In this document: positions 29,679 through 62,020 of the stretch, one piece after another | How the letters are laid out: each line of letters starts with the position of its first letter | Numbering within the stretch: the stretch's first letter is position 1 | Source: Pseudomonas fluorescens Q2-87 | GTDB taxonomy: Bacteria > Pseudomonadota > Gammaproteobacteria > Pseudomonadales > Pseudomonadaceae | Assembly (NCBI RefSeq): GCF_000281895.1 | Contig: NZ_CM001558.1 | Span: forward strand, 1,492,556-1,556,555 | Reading direction: 5' to 3' | Length of the DNA stretch: 64,000 nucleotides | Notes under the pieces: model-generated | Seen by the model: the letters and a program-made list of their open reading frames with translations, nothing else | Databases searched by the model: none | Told to the model about the DNA's origin: nothing | Translations under genes and position numbers: made by a program

Positions 29679-29688
29679 TTGTATACAA
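29679..29688. promoter_or_regulatory. TTGTATACAA palindrome upstream of puuE
   Basis: Perfect 10-base palindrome, 81 bases before the puuE start, in the puuE/uraH divergent region. Identical sites lie before the NCS2 permease gene and in the gcl region. Confidence 0.7.
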
Positions 29689-29873
29689 CTTTATGCGCGA
29701 TTTGTAAGCCCGTTTTTTTGCATTTTTCATCGAGTCCCCTGGTTTGTCTACACTGCAAGAAACCTGCCTACTTGGTCAATTAATCGCTACTGGAGCAGCG
29801 TATCCTTTGGTTTGGCTTGAAGTTGGGGCAGGGGCGCAATTGAACATGATGCGAGCAAAATATCTTCTTTTTA

Positions 29874-29883
29874 TTGTGTACAA
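29874..29883. promoter_or_regulatory. TTGTGTACAA site upstream of uraH
   Basis: One mismatch from the TTGTATACAA palindrome, about 95-130 bases before uraH depending on the start chosen. It would let one regulator control both divergent urate transcripts. Confidence 0.55.
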
Positions 29884-30013
29884 TTTTTATGTAAAGTGTC
29901 TTAATTCATCCATCGCCGCAGCGTTTGATGCTCCGAAACGGTGCGGCTTGTCTTTCAACTGATTCTAAGGAGGCGCCGTGCCGGGCTGCACCGCAGCGAG
30001 GCGCGCACAATCG

Positions 30014-30367
30014 ATGGGACGTTTGACTACTCACGTTTTGGACGCAGCCCACGGCTGCCCGGGCAGTGCGATCAAGATCGAGCTGTACCGCGTTGAAGGA
30101 TCACACCTGCACTTGGTCGCCAGCGCGCAGACCAACAGCGACGGCCGCTGCGATGCGCCATTGCTGCAAGGGGATGACTATCGATCGGGGGTCTATCAGT
30201 TGCAATTCCATGCGGGCGATTACTACCGTGCCCGAGGTGTGCAACTGCCCGAGCCGGCATTCCTGGATGTGGTGGTGCTGCGCTTCGGCATTTCGGCCGA
30301 GCAGGAGCATTACCACGTGCCCCTGTTGATTTCGCCTTACGCCTATTCAACCTATCGAGGCAGTTGA
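30014..30367 (+). CDS. uraH: 5-Hydroxyisourate hydrolase UraH
   Basis: 117 residues from the ATG at 30014, the usual family size. It begins MGRLTTHVLDAAHGCPG, has the transthyretin-like core (FHAGDYYRA, EQEHYHVPLLISPY) and ends with the signature YRGS. It hydrolyses 5-hydroxyisourate to OHCU, between PuuD and UraD. A GTG at 29978 in the same frame has a much better ribosome site (AAGGAGG four bases ahead) and would add 12 residues; the family start favours 30014, the ribosome site favours 29978. It is divergent from the puuE operon. Confidence 0.94.
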   Translation: MGRLTTHVLDAAHGCPGSAIKIELYRVEGSHLHLVASAQTNSDGRCDAPLLQGDDYRSGVYQLQFHAGDYYRARGVQLPEPAFLDVVVLRFGISAEQEHYHVPLLISPYAYSTYRGS

Positions 30368-30425
30368 TCCCCCAAGCTGCTGCCTTGTCCTGGAAGCGAC
30401 TGCGCATAGAGCTTCCCTGGTTTTC

Positions 30426-30452
30426 GCCCGCTCACACTGCGGGCTTTTTTTT
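30426..30452 (+). terminator. Rho-independent terminator after uraH
   Basis: GCCCGC, a 7-base loop, GCGGGC, then eight T. It lies about 60 bases after the uraH stop. Confidence 0.85.
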
Positions 30453-30483
30453 GCTTGTCGATATGTGTTGTCTGGAAGGGCGC

Positions 30484-30551
30484 CTTCGCGAGCAAGCCCG
30501 CTCCCACATTTGAAATGCATTCCAATTGTGGGAGCGGGCTTGCTCGCGAAG
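30484..30551. repeat. REP pair, GGGAGCGGGCTTGCTCGCGAA type
   Basis: Inverted copies of TTCGCGAGCAAGCCCGCTCC separated by about 20 bases, between the convergent uraH and LysE-type genes. Confidence 0.9.
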
Positions 30552-30563
30552 CTTTTGTTTTTC

Positions 30564-59135: not shown

Positions 59136-59149
59136 CAGCTCGCGCTGGG

Positions 59150-59932
59150 TCAGATTGCGTTATGGGCTTTCAACCATCCCAATCCCGCTTCGGTGCTGGT
59201 CAGCGGTTTGTATTCACAGCCGACCCAACCCTGGTAACCGATGCGGTCCAGGTGTTCGAACAGGAAGCGATAGTTGATCTCCCCGGTGCCCGGCTCGTTA
59301 CGCCCCGGGTTGTCCGCCAGTTGCACATGGTTGATCTCGCCCAGGTGGGTCGACAGGGTGCGGGCCAGATCACCTTCCATGATTTGCATGTGATAAATGT
59401 CGTATTGCAGGAACAGATTGGCGCTGCCCACCTGCTCGCGAATCGACAGGGCCTGGGCGGTGTTGTTCAGGTAGAAGCCGGGGATGTCGCGGGTGTTGAT
59501 GGCTTCCATCACCAGTTTGATGCCCTTGGCTTGCAGCTTTTCGGCGGCGTACTTCAGGTTGGCGACGAAGGTTTTCTCCACCAGGGTTTCGCTGCAGTTG
59601 CGTGGGCGAATCCCGGCCAGGCAGTTGATTTGTGTGTTGCCCAGTACCTGGGCGTAGGCGATTGCCAGGTCGACGCCGGCGCGGAACTCCTCGACCCGGT
59701 CCGGCAGGCAGGCGATACCGCGCTCGCCCTTGGCCCAGTCGCCGGCCGGCAGGTTGAACAGCACTTGGGTCAGGCCGTTGGCGTCGAGCAAGGCCTTGAG
59801 TTCGGCAGAGCTGTAGTCATAAGGAAACAGATACTCGACACCACTGAAGCCGGCCTTGGCGGCCGCTTCGAAACGGGCGAGGAAATCCTGCTCGGTAAAC
59901 AGCATGGACAGGTTGGCGGCGAAGCGTGGCAT
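59150..59932 (-). CDS. hyi: Hydroxypyruvate isomerase Hyi
   Basis: 260 residues, TIM barrel of the xylose-isomerase-like group. PRFAANLSMLFTE at the N-terminus, LVMEAINTRDIPGFYLN (metal Glu), YDIYHMQIMEGDL and GCEYKPL (second metal Glu) match Hyi. It interconverts hydroxypyruvate and tartronate semialdehyde, so glyoxylate-derived carbon and hydroxypyruvate share the GlxR step. Follows gcl with a REP pair between. Confidence 0.95.
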   Translation of the reverse strand: MPRFAANLSMLFTEQDFLARFEAAAKAGFSGVEYLFPYDYSSAELKALLDANGLTQVLFNLPAGDWAKGERGIACLPDRVEEFRAGVDLAIAYAQVLGNTQINCLAGIRPRNCSETLVEKTFVANLKYAAEKLQAKGIKLVMEAINTRDIPGFYLNNTAQALSIREQVGSANLFLQYDIYHMQIMEGDLARTLSTHLGEINHVQLADNPGRNEPGTGEINYRFLFEHLDRIGYQGWVGCEYKPLTSTEAGLGWLKAHNAI

Positions 59933-59961
59933 GGTGGTTTCCTATCAATATATGGAAGGCC

Positions 59962-60055
59962 CCTGTGGGAGCGGGCTTGCTCGCGAAAGCGGTGTGTCAG
60001 CCGACATCTTTGTTGGAACTGAAGCCGTCTTCGCGAGCAAGCCCGCTCCCACAGA
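59962..60055. repeat. REP pair, GGGAGCGGGCTTGCTCGCGAA type
   Basis: Inverted copies of TGTGGGAGCGGGCTTGCTCG about 45 bases apart, between gcl and hyi. Confidence 0.9.
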
Positions 60056-60069
60056 GGGATGTCAGCAGG

Positions 60070-61845
60070 TCAGTCGAGTAATGAAATTGCCGTCGGCGCA
60101 TCGTTGCCCACCAGCGCCAGGTCTTCGAATTCGTTGACCGCGTTGATCTCGGTGCCCATGGAAATATTGGTCACTCGCTCCAGGATGATCTCGACGATCA
60201 CCGGCACCTTGAACGCCTCGATCATCTCCTGGGCCTTGCGCAGCGCAGGCTGAATCCCGGACGGTTCGAATACCCGCAACGCCTTGCAACCCAGGCCTTC
60301 GGCGACGGCAACGTGGTCCACGCCATAACCGTTGAGCTCCGGCGCGTTGAGGTTGTCGAATGACAGTTGCACGCAGTAATCCATGTCGAACCCACGCTGG
60401 GCCTGGCGGATCAGGCCCAGGTAGGAGTTGTTCACCACGACGTGGATGTACGGCAGCTTGAATTGCGCGCCTACCGCCAGCTCTTCGATCATGAACTGGA
60501 AGTCATAGTCGCCCGACAGCGCCACGACCTTGCGGCTCGGATCGGCCTTCACCACCCCCAGGGCGGCGGGGATGGTCCAGCCCAAGGGACCGGCCTGGCC
60601 GCAGTTGATCCAATGCCGTGGTTTGTAGACGTGCAGGAACTGCGCCCCGGCGATCTGCGACAGGCCGATGGTGCTGACGTAGCAGGTGTCCTTGCCGAAT
60701 ACCTGGTTCATTTCCTCGTACACGCGTTGTGGCTTGACCGGCACGTTGTCGAAATGGGTCTTGCGCTGCAGGCTGGCCTTGCGCTGCTGGCAATCTTGCA
60801 GCCAGGCGCTGCGGTTCTTCAGTTTGCCGGCGGCTTGCCATTCGCGGGCCACTTCAATGAATACGGTCAGGGCCGAGGCGGCGTCGGAAACGATGCCCAG
60901 GTCAGGCGTGAACACGCGACCGATCTGGGTCGGCTCGATGTCCACATGGATAAAGGTACGGCCTTCGGTGTAGACATCCACCGAGCCGGTGTGCCGGTTG
61001 GCCCAACGGTTGCCGACACCCAGCACCACATCCGACTTGAGCAGCGTGGCGTTGCCGTAGCGGTGGGACGTTTGCAGGCCGACCATGCCGACCATCAATG
61101 GGTGGTCGTCCGGAATCGTGCCCCAACCCATCAGCGTCGGAATGACCGGAATGCCGGTCAGTTCGGCAAACTCCACCAGCAGGTCGCTTGCATCGGCGTT
61201 GATGATGCCACCGCCGGCCACCAGCAACGGGCGCTCGGCCTGATTGAGCATCGTCAGGGCTTTTTCGATCTGCACGCGATTGGCGGTGGGTTTAGCCAGG
61301 GGCAGCGGTTGGTAGGCCTCGATGTCGAATTCGATTTCGGCCATCTGCACGTCGAACGGCAGGTCGATCAGCACCGGGCCCGGACGCCCGGAGCGCATCT
61401 CATAAAACGCTTTCTGGAACGCGTAGGGCACCTGGCCCGGCTCCAGCACGGTGGTCGCCCACTTGGTGACCGGTTTGACGATGCTGGTGATATCCACAGC
61501 CTGGAAATCTTCCTTGTGCATACGGGCGCGGGGGGCTTGCCCGGTGATGCACAGGATCGGGATCGAATCGGCCGAGGCGCTGTAGAGCCCGGTCACCATG
61601 TCGGTGCCGGCCGGCCCCGAGGTACCGATGCAAACGCCGATGTTACCGGCCTTGGTCCGGGTGTAGCCCTCGGCCATGTGCGAGGCGCCTTCAACGTGGC
61701 GAGCGAGGACATGATCGATGCCGCCAACCTTTTGCAGGGCGCTGTAAAGCGGGTTGATCGCAGCGCCCGGAATGCCGAAGGCGGTGTCCACGCCTTCACG
61801 GCGCATCACCAGGACGGCGGCTTCGATTGTTCTCATTTTGCTCAT
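60070..61845 (-). CDS. gcl: Glyoxylate carboligase Gcl
   Basis: 591 residues from the ATG at 61845, with AAGAGG upstream. A thiamine-diphosphate enzyme with the N-terminal PYR domain, FAD-binding middle domain and C-terminal PP domain ([14 protein letters not shown] then [12 protein letters not shown], the ThDP/Mg motif). Where related enzymes have the catalytic Glu, this has Val ([14 protein letters not shown]), as is known for Gcl. It condenses two glyoxylate to tartronate semialdehyde and CO2. First gene of gcl-hyi-glxR-ttuD-pyk. TTGTATACAA lies 27 bases before its start. Confidence 0.96.
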
Positions 61846-61871
61846 GGTTTTGTGCCTCTTACGTTTTGTAA

Positions 61872-61881
61872 TTGTATACAA
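61872..61881. promoter_or_regulatory. TTGTATACAA palindrome at the gcl start
   Basis: Perfect palindrome 27 bases upstream of the gcl ATG, in a position suited to repression. Also matches 62011, 29679 and 32742. Confidence 0.7.
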
Positions 61882-62010
61882 GTGGCTGTGCGCAGAGTGT
61901 ATTCACGCCTGGCGACGCAGGTCAATCCATTTCCTCAAGCATCTGTTTCATTTGCAATCGAGGTGGAAACACGGCGTCTGCTCGTCGGAAAATGCACTTT
62001 GTTGGAATTA

Positions 62011-62020
62011 TTGTATACAA
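62011..62020. promoter_or_regulatory. TTGTATACAA palindrome upstream of the GlcG-like gene
   Basis: Perfect palindrome 91 bases before the GlcG-like gene start and 139 bases from the copy at 61872, so two sites share the divergent promoter region. Confidence 0.7.

Follow-up and report, generated by a model that had tools for sequence, protein, structure and literature searches.

One palindromic operator probably joins the urate and glyoxylate genes of Pseudomonas fluorescens Q2-87, in pairs that keep helical register

Introduction

A 64-kb stretch of the P. fluorescens Q2-87 genome (hereafter the window; C1:1492556-1556555, C1 being the single contig of this 6.37-Mb genome) carries genes for urate breakdown and, at a distance, genes for glyoxylate use, and one short palindrome stands before genes of both blocks. 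Do the two blocks form one regulon, and which protein reads the palindrome? The original prediction was that one GntR-family repressor controls both blocks, so that the route from urate to pyruvate is a single regulon. Four lines of evidence favour this: a suitable regulator, a site before its own gene, the co-occurrence of regulator and sites among genomes, and the literature on UgmR of P. aeruginosa. The palindromes are very probably GclR/UgmR operators that form a urate–glyoxylate regulon, with paired operators held in constant helical phase. The single-regulon idea is correct, and known in outline, because UgmR and GclR have already been described; at its core our claim restates, in a further pseudomonad, what has been described for P. 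aeruginosa and P. putida.

Results and discussion

The operator word in the window and the genome

The window holds four copies of the palindrome TTGTATACAA (29679..29688, 32742..32751, 61872..61881 and 62011..62020) and one of its variant TTGTGTACAA (29874..29883). A scan reproduced all five predicted positions and returned no other match to TTGTATACAA with 0–1 mismatch across the 64 kb; shuffled sequences gave a mean of 0.38 matches and a maximum of two, and none of 100 shuffles reached five. Measured from start codons and ribosome sites read off the sequence, the site at 29679 lies 81 bp upstream of puuE (GTG 29598), that at 29874 lies 95 bp upstream of uraH and 195 bp from its partner at 29679, and that at 32742 lies 139 bp before an NCS2 permease gene. 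The remaining two are partners 139 bp apart: 61872 is 27 bp before gcl (ATG 61845) and 62011 is 91 bp before a GlcG/HbpS-like gene. All five sites are intergenic, as had been proposed, because each lies upstream of the start codon as read; a mechanically called gcl frame overlaps its site only because it opens at an upstream TTG. The predicted distance between the blocks, about 23–32 kb, stands at its upper figure, the sites being about 29–32 kb apart, and its lower figure is too short.

Genome-wide, perfect TTGTATACAA occurs eight times against once for a reversed control pattern, together with one TTGTGTACAA and one TTGTACACAA (centre GT or AC); away from these promoters the word is rare. 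The looser TTGTNNACAA shows no enrichment in the genome (44 copies versus 55 for its control), and the central letters of the word therefore matter. Nine of the ten copies (eight perfect, TTGTGTACAA and TTGTACACAA) precede genes and one lies within a frame. The four perfect copies outside the window stand before an NCS1 permease gene, before a xanthine permease gene, in the gap between azurin and a LOG-type gene, and inside a phosphatase-like frame; the last (C1:3956537) is probably a chance match and was set aside. Five copies of TTGTGCACAA, two within long frames and three between frames, were left out of this count and checked for frame overlap alone. As a separate observation, seven copies of TTGTCGACAA recur at C1:5919141-5920998 in steps of 264 bp or multiples of it, probably as part of a repeated coding unit.

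Conservation across the genus

Searches anchored on proteins covered 59 genomes of the genus Pseudomonas, and the best 30 loci were fetched per gene, out of 44 genomes with matches for the NCS1 permease, 42 for the xanthine permease, 51 for GclR, 41 for LOG and 47 for gcl, so that nearer relatives are over-represented in these sets. PuuE alone fetched 80 Pseudomonas loci, all of which have the puuE–uraH pair of sites, and with 30 loci fetched by a site-containing pattern the count becomes 110 of 110; loci L133-L192, which were fetched by patterns containing the sites, inform on spacing and not on presence. The site of the NCS2 permease, with an AT or AC centre, is kept in all 70 loci whose upstream sequence extends to 150 bp or more. 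Among the best 30 loci of each set, the word precedes the allantoin-type NCS1 permease in 30 (here at 82 bp, with a hydantoin-racemase-type gene adjacent) and the NCS2 xanthine permease in 29 (here at 70 bp), and both members of the gcl/GlcG pair are present in all 30 gcl-anchored loci. The word is thus conserved before orthologous puuE, gcl and permease genes, and this conserved 10-mer serves as a regulon map over many pseudomonads, from the uptake of xanthine and allantoin to pyruvate. Rarity elsewhere and conservation before orthologues were two of the checks set for the original prediction, and it withstood both.

An alignment of 32 gcl loci adds a predicted promoter to this picture. In it TTGACC is invariant and TACACT shows few changes; in the window 18 bp separate these elements (61925-61920 and 61901-61896; predicted promoter 61896..61925, minus strand), with the operator another 14 bp on, just downstream of the predicted sigma70 promoter. 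Because of this position, the repressor would sit near the predicted start of gcl transcription.

A candidate regulator and its regulon

No gene for the regulator was obvious in the window, as had been remarked from the start, and the likely gene sits 2.55 Mb to the right, at C1:4111138-4111875 on the minus strand. Its product carries GntR (PF00392) and FCD (PF07729) domains and is 91% identical over residues 1-246 to that of a P. juntendi gene (locus L124), a reference picked by its position beside the same NCS2 permease; the next best protein in the Q2-87 genome reaches 29%. In putida-group loci this permease gene is divergent from the GntR/FCD gene with a site between them. Neighbourhood and literature together make the Q2-87 gene a likely GclR/UgmR orthologue. 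Its start has TTGTGTACAA 94 bp upstream, and a site is kept in 30 of 30 gclR loci. A BenE-family transporter gene (L023:6118-7308 = C1:4112117-4113307, plus strand) is divergent from gclR and stands beside it in the same 30 loci; this synteny suggests that the transporter may carry a purine or a related compound and not benzoate.

Regulator and sites also occur together. Among the 59 genomes, 49 of the 51 with the regulator (E <= 1e-60) have at least one operator pair, against one of the eight without it (Fisher p 8e-7, kinship ignored; the pair pattern, TTGTRYACAA, also admits TTGTGCACAA, and the genome lists were transferred by hand).

Repression and its release by urate are taken from work on P. 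aeruginosa, where UgmR (PA1520) is reported to bind upstream of gcl and of PA1513-PA1518 (the allantoin cluster) and to repress both, uric acid but not allantoin giving relief (PMC12694930, citing Xu et al. 2022); the same article reports a UgmR motif at gcl in data from systematic evolution of ligands by exponential enrichment (SELEX), and it lists AllR of Escherichia coli in a cited title. Neither PA1520 nor UgmR is named in the main text of PMC8041468. In P. putida KT2440, GclR (PP_4283; Li et al. 2019 as cited) is described as a GntR repressor of the gcl cluster that is tied to xanthine metabolism and whose loss opens the glyoxylate route (PMC11166783, PMC13357446, PMC6978631).

Binding of the repressor at the sites in Q2-87 is presumed by analogy with these reports. 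We propose that the GclR/UgmR orthologue would sit on or beside the promoters of puuE, uraH, the NCS2 permease, gcl and the GlcG-like gene, with the NCS1 permease, the xanthine permease, gclR itself and azurin as further targets. Build-up of urate would release the repressor, and release would lead to joint production of the route from purine uptake through urate, allantoin and glyoxylate to pyruvate. At the two divergent promoters the operators would act as a pair in constant helical phase, through either a loop bridged by two repressor dimers or each operator facing a central promoter-bound protein.

Operator pairs keep helical register

At the two divergent promoters, the operator pairs keep their helical register while their spacing shifts by about 11 bp or multiples of it. 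The puuE–uraH spacings of 110 loci, the window included, fall only at 180-184, 193-196, 205-207, 216-218, 236-238 and 266 bp. One further locus (L157) was dropped from the original 111, only one of its sites being inside the measured stretch; its two sites are 195 bp apart and thus in class. The 110 rows of the tree hold 104 different sequences, and some named and other loci probably come from the same genomes.

A quick tree of puuE and uraH DNA implies 19 changes between spacing classes, with 36 of its 101 inner branches open; when the starred branches are taken by themselves, fewer changes are forced in each class (7, 6, 5, 3, 2 and 1). Parsimony on the exact values gives 42 changes, of which 16 are of 1-2 bp, one is of 3 bp, none is of 4-9 bp and 25 are of at least 10 bp, the last falling at 10-14, 21-23, 32, 41-43 and 71 bp; a second cost scheme yields one 9-bp step and none of 3-8 bp. 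Sister loci differ by a single 11-bp insertion or deletion, and also by several that sum to 11 or 22. The flanks of the same loci behave differently: steps of at least 3 bp fall in the 3-9 bp range in one of 26 cases for the operator pair, versus 13 of 21 between operator and uraH and 19 of 38 between operator and puuE (Fisher p 2e-5 and 7e-5, or 4e-4 and 2e-4 under the second scheme, kinship ignored), with the limit that these controls use anchored codons, so that codon changes may account for some of the steps of 3, 6 and 9 bp. As a control the uacT distance is weaker, with three of 13 such steps in this range by unit count.

The gcl–GlcG pair is stepped in a similar manner. Its spacing in 61 loci from 59 genomes (G017 and G047 are counted twice) is 138-140 bp in 50 loci, 128 bp in ten and 106 bp in one, and the 32 aligned gcl loci divide into classes of 25, 6 and 1; G142, at 130 bp, is slightly off class. 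Six class changes are implied here, two or three of which are forced by starred branches.

A period fitted to these data gives R of 0.73-0.84, above all 5000 random sets. Two observations weaken simple looping: the best period is unstable (11.80 and 10.35 bp from the spacings, 9.95 and 10.05 bp from the steps), and no single helical repeat gives whole turns at both promoters. Looping through whole turns in its simple form was rejected on the latter ground, and we therefore limit our claim to constant phase. Within this limit, the helical steps are an evolutionary sign of operator pairs that act together in space, and the loop could be formed by the repressor itself.

What else could hold the phase? 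The region between puuE and uraH contains a highly conserved central block (29752..29782, minus strand, here TTGACCAAGTAGGCAGGTTTCTTGCA) with GG-N10-GC, the spacing of sigma54 promoters, which may be a -24/-12 element directed towards puuE; the block is possibly a sigma54 promoter or an activator site. A protein at this block (of the general form TTAGCTGACCnnTCAGGCAGGTTTCTTGCA), either sigma54 polymerase or an activator, might face both operators or promoters and so produce the helical steps in place of looping between repressors. We regard this as a serious possibility that falls somewhat short of probable. The block pattern, which already demands GGC and TTGC, has one match in 97 of the 110 loci, two in four and none in nine. 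In the 97 single-block loci, the distances from the block are themselves stepped, at 104-105, 113-117, 126, 156-159 and 186-187 bp to the uraH operator and at 68-69, 78-80, 90-91 and 101-103 bp to the puuE operator; since both half-distances are stepped, a central factor and a repressor–repressor loop account for the data equally well. Against a central factor, all nine loci without a pattern match stay in the spacing classes, seven of them at 180-184 bp and the other two, L054 (207 bp) and L122 (194 bp), with a changed block, and the gcl–GlcG pair shows similar steps without this block.

Azurin as a possible member of the regulon

The perfect operator at C1:5662053 lies between azurin and a LOG-type gene. 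Among the best 30 of 41 loci fetched by LOG, 24 have a site in this region; expressed differently, 24 of the 27 azurin-bearing loci have it, always 88-91 bp upstream of azurin (e.g. operator L022:6054-6063 and azurin L022:5519-5965, minus strand). Azurin stands without the site in three loci, two of which have a one-mismatch copy further upstream.

LOG, our first reading of the target, was rejected in favour of azurin on the ground of this constant distance. Could the site nevertheless serve the divergent side, i.e. a small open reading frame (ORF) and the LOG-type nucleotide hydrolase? We consider this possible and on the unlikely side. LOG enzymes act on purine nucleotides, an activity that would fit the regulon, and in the Q2-87 genome that side carries a 29-codon ORF whose start is about 93 bp from the site. 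Set against this, every one of the 24 site-bearing loci has azurin at 88-91 bp, whereas LOG is anywhere between 173 and 263 bp away. The constancy has a second possible source: most site-bearing loci have a conserved box beside the site, between it and azurin, that is probably Anr-type. The azu gene is reported as an Anr target (PMC6588701). With such a box adjoining it, the operator could serve a divergent transcript, which tells against azurin as a member of the regulon.

What could azurin do there? PuuD, the membrane urate oxidase of the window (25087..26388, minus strand), has the Urate_ox_N membrane domain (PF06181, E 5.3e-125) and a terminal cytochrome c domain, its translation showing a C-terminal c-type haem motif, CSVCH. 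For Agrobacterium PuuD, a cytochrome c domain is predicted outside the membrane and electron transfer is suggested; the passages covered name no electron acceptor, leave azurin unmentioned, report that azide gave no specific inhibition and offer superoxide scavenging as an alternative (PMC4562309). Titles and abstract openings listed by literature searches, with most subscription journals outside their scope, included none that links azurin with a urate regulator. From the shared site we put forward, as a doubtful proposal, that azurin belongs to the urate regulon as acceptor of the electrons that PuuD removes from urate. If true, purine breakdown would feed the respiratory chain via a copper protein under the urate repressor. 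The site thus points to a specific protein as a candidate acceptor for the electrons of this urate oxidase.

Other readers of the word

Several observations count against a regulon under GclR/UgmR. G013 has an operator pair and no GclR orthologue (best match 28-30%), and G031 and G056 have the regulator and neither operator pair. In P. umsongensis GO16, which carries two gcl genes, deletion of the GclR orthologue is reported to leave growth on ethylene glycol unchanged, a setting that requires the LysR activator TtdR (PMC13357446). The gcl gene of P. aeruginosa is induced by allantoin, which does not relieve UgmR (PMC12694930), and a second regulator is therefore likely. PA1504 has been proposed for this unexplained allantoin response (PMC12694930); it is of the same type, and in the same place, as a RutR-like TetR gene that adjoins the gcl block of Q2-87 (63351-63995, minus strand).

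These points leave room for another FCD-domain or an unrelated regulator that binds the word, GclR merely sharing the neighbourhood. The genome has 20 FCD-domain matches, some genomes hold a second regulator that is about 50% identical, and the G013 pair exists without GclR. We think this reading very unlikely, given that (i) Q2-87 has no close GclR paralogue (next best 29%); (ii) the word precedes gclR itself in 30 of 30 loci; (iii) operator pairs accompany the regulator in 49 of 51 genomes versus one of eight without it; and (iv) UgmR is reported on both promoters (PMC12694930). Least probable of all is that the word is a conserved promoter element (the -10 box TATACAAT) and not an operator: at puuE, uraH, gcl and gclR its letters do read TATACAAT or TACAAT towards the gene, but the whole palindrome is conserved, the gcl copy has a better -10 upstream of it, the azurin copy lies upstream of the Anr-type box, the copies at the NCS2 permease and the GlcG-like gene are followed by A and not T, and the genome has few copies of the word.

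Genes of the two blocks

The urate block runs on the minus strand from puuD through ureidoglycolate lyase (26441..27082, PF04115), allantoicase (alc; 27094..28089, TIGR02961) and OHCU decarboxylase (uraD; 28145..28711, PF09349) to allantoinase (puuE; 28657..29598, TIGR03212). The uraD start is mechanical and overlaps puuE, whose GTG was read from the sequence (the mechanical ORF extends to 29652); a frame at 28086-28574 was rejected as uraD, having no family match. On the plus strand, uraH (hydroxyisourate hydrolase; 29978..30367, TIGR02962) starts at GTG 29978, with an inner ATG at 30014 also possible. The NCS2 permease (31254..32603, minus strand, PF00860) is by its position a candidate urate transporter.

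The glyoxylate block, also on the minus strand, comprises pyruvate kinase (55248..56663, from a family search), a glycerate 2-kinase-like gene (56653..57933, below the curated cut-offs of both matching models), 2-hydroxy-3-oxopropionate (tartronate semialdehyde) reductase (glxR; 58080..58970, TIGR01505), hydroxypyruvate isomerase (hyi; 59150..59932, TIGR03234) and glyoxylate carboligase (gcl; 60070..61845, TIGR01504). The GlcG/HbpS-like gene (62111..62551, plus strand, PF03928) is divergent from gcl, and a gene for a REP-associated tyrosine transposase (62763-63221, plus strand) follows it immediately.

Comparison with known systems

The reach to the permeases and azurin and the helical steps were not found in the literature covered, which had Xu et al. 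(2022) and Li et al. (2019) outside it; this is not proof that they are unpublished. The closest known system is the UgmR regulon of P. aeruginosa, with which the Q2-87 case shares a GntR-family repressor and targets upstream of gcl and the allantoin cluster, relief by uric acid being the P. aeruginosa finding. It differs in that sites in Q2-87 also precede the NCS1 permease, the xanthine permease and azurin (the target list of Xu et al. lies outside this comparison) and that the Q2-87 regulator gene is 2.55 Mb away. GclR of P. putida is likewise a GntR repressor, acting on the gcl cluster; in the putida group its gene and that of the NCS2 permease diverge from a shared gap that holds a site, whereas the Q2-87 gene is divergent from the BenE-like transporter.

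AllR of E. coli, a member of the IclR family, is a single repressor that joins allantoin and glyoxylate genes and senses allantoin and glyoxylate. The likeness is that one repressor joins the two sets of genes, and the difference is that it belongs to another protein family. Paired-operator repressors such as those of lac, gal and ara loop DNA, and the effects of operator spacing repeat there with the helical turn. The operator pairs of Q2-87 resemble them in an effect of spacing per helical turn, which here is read from the evolution of spacing across Pseudomonas and there from experiment.

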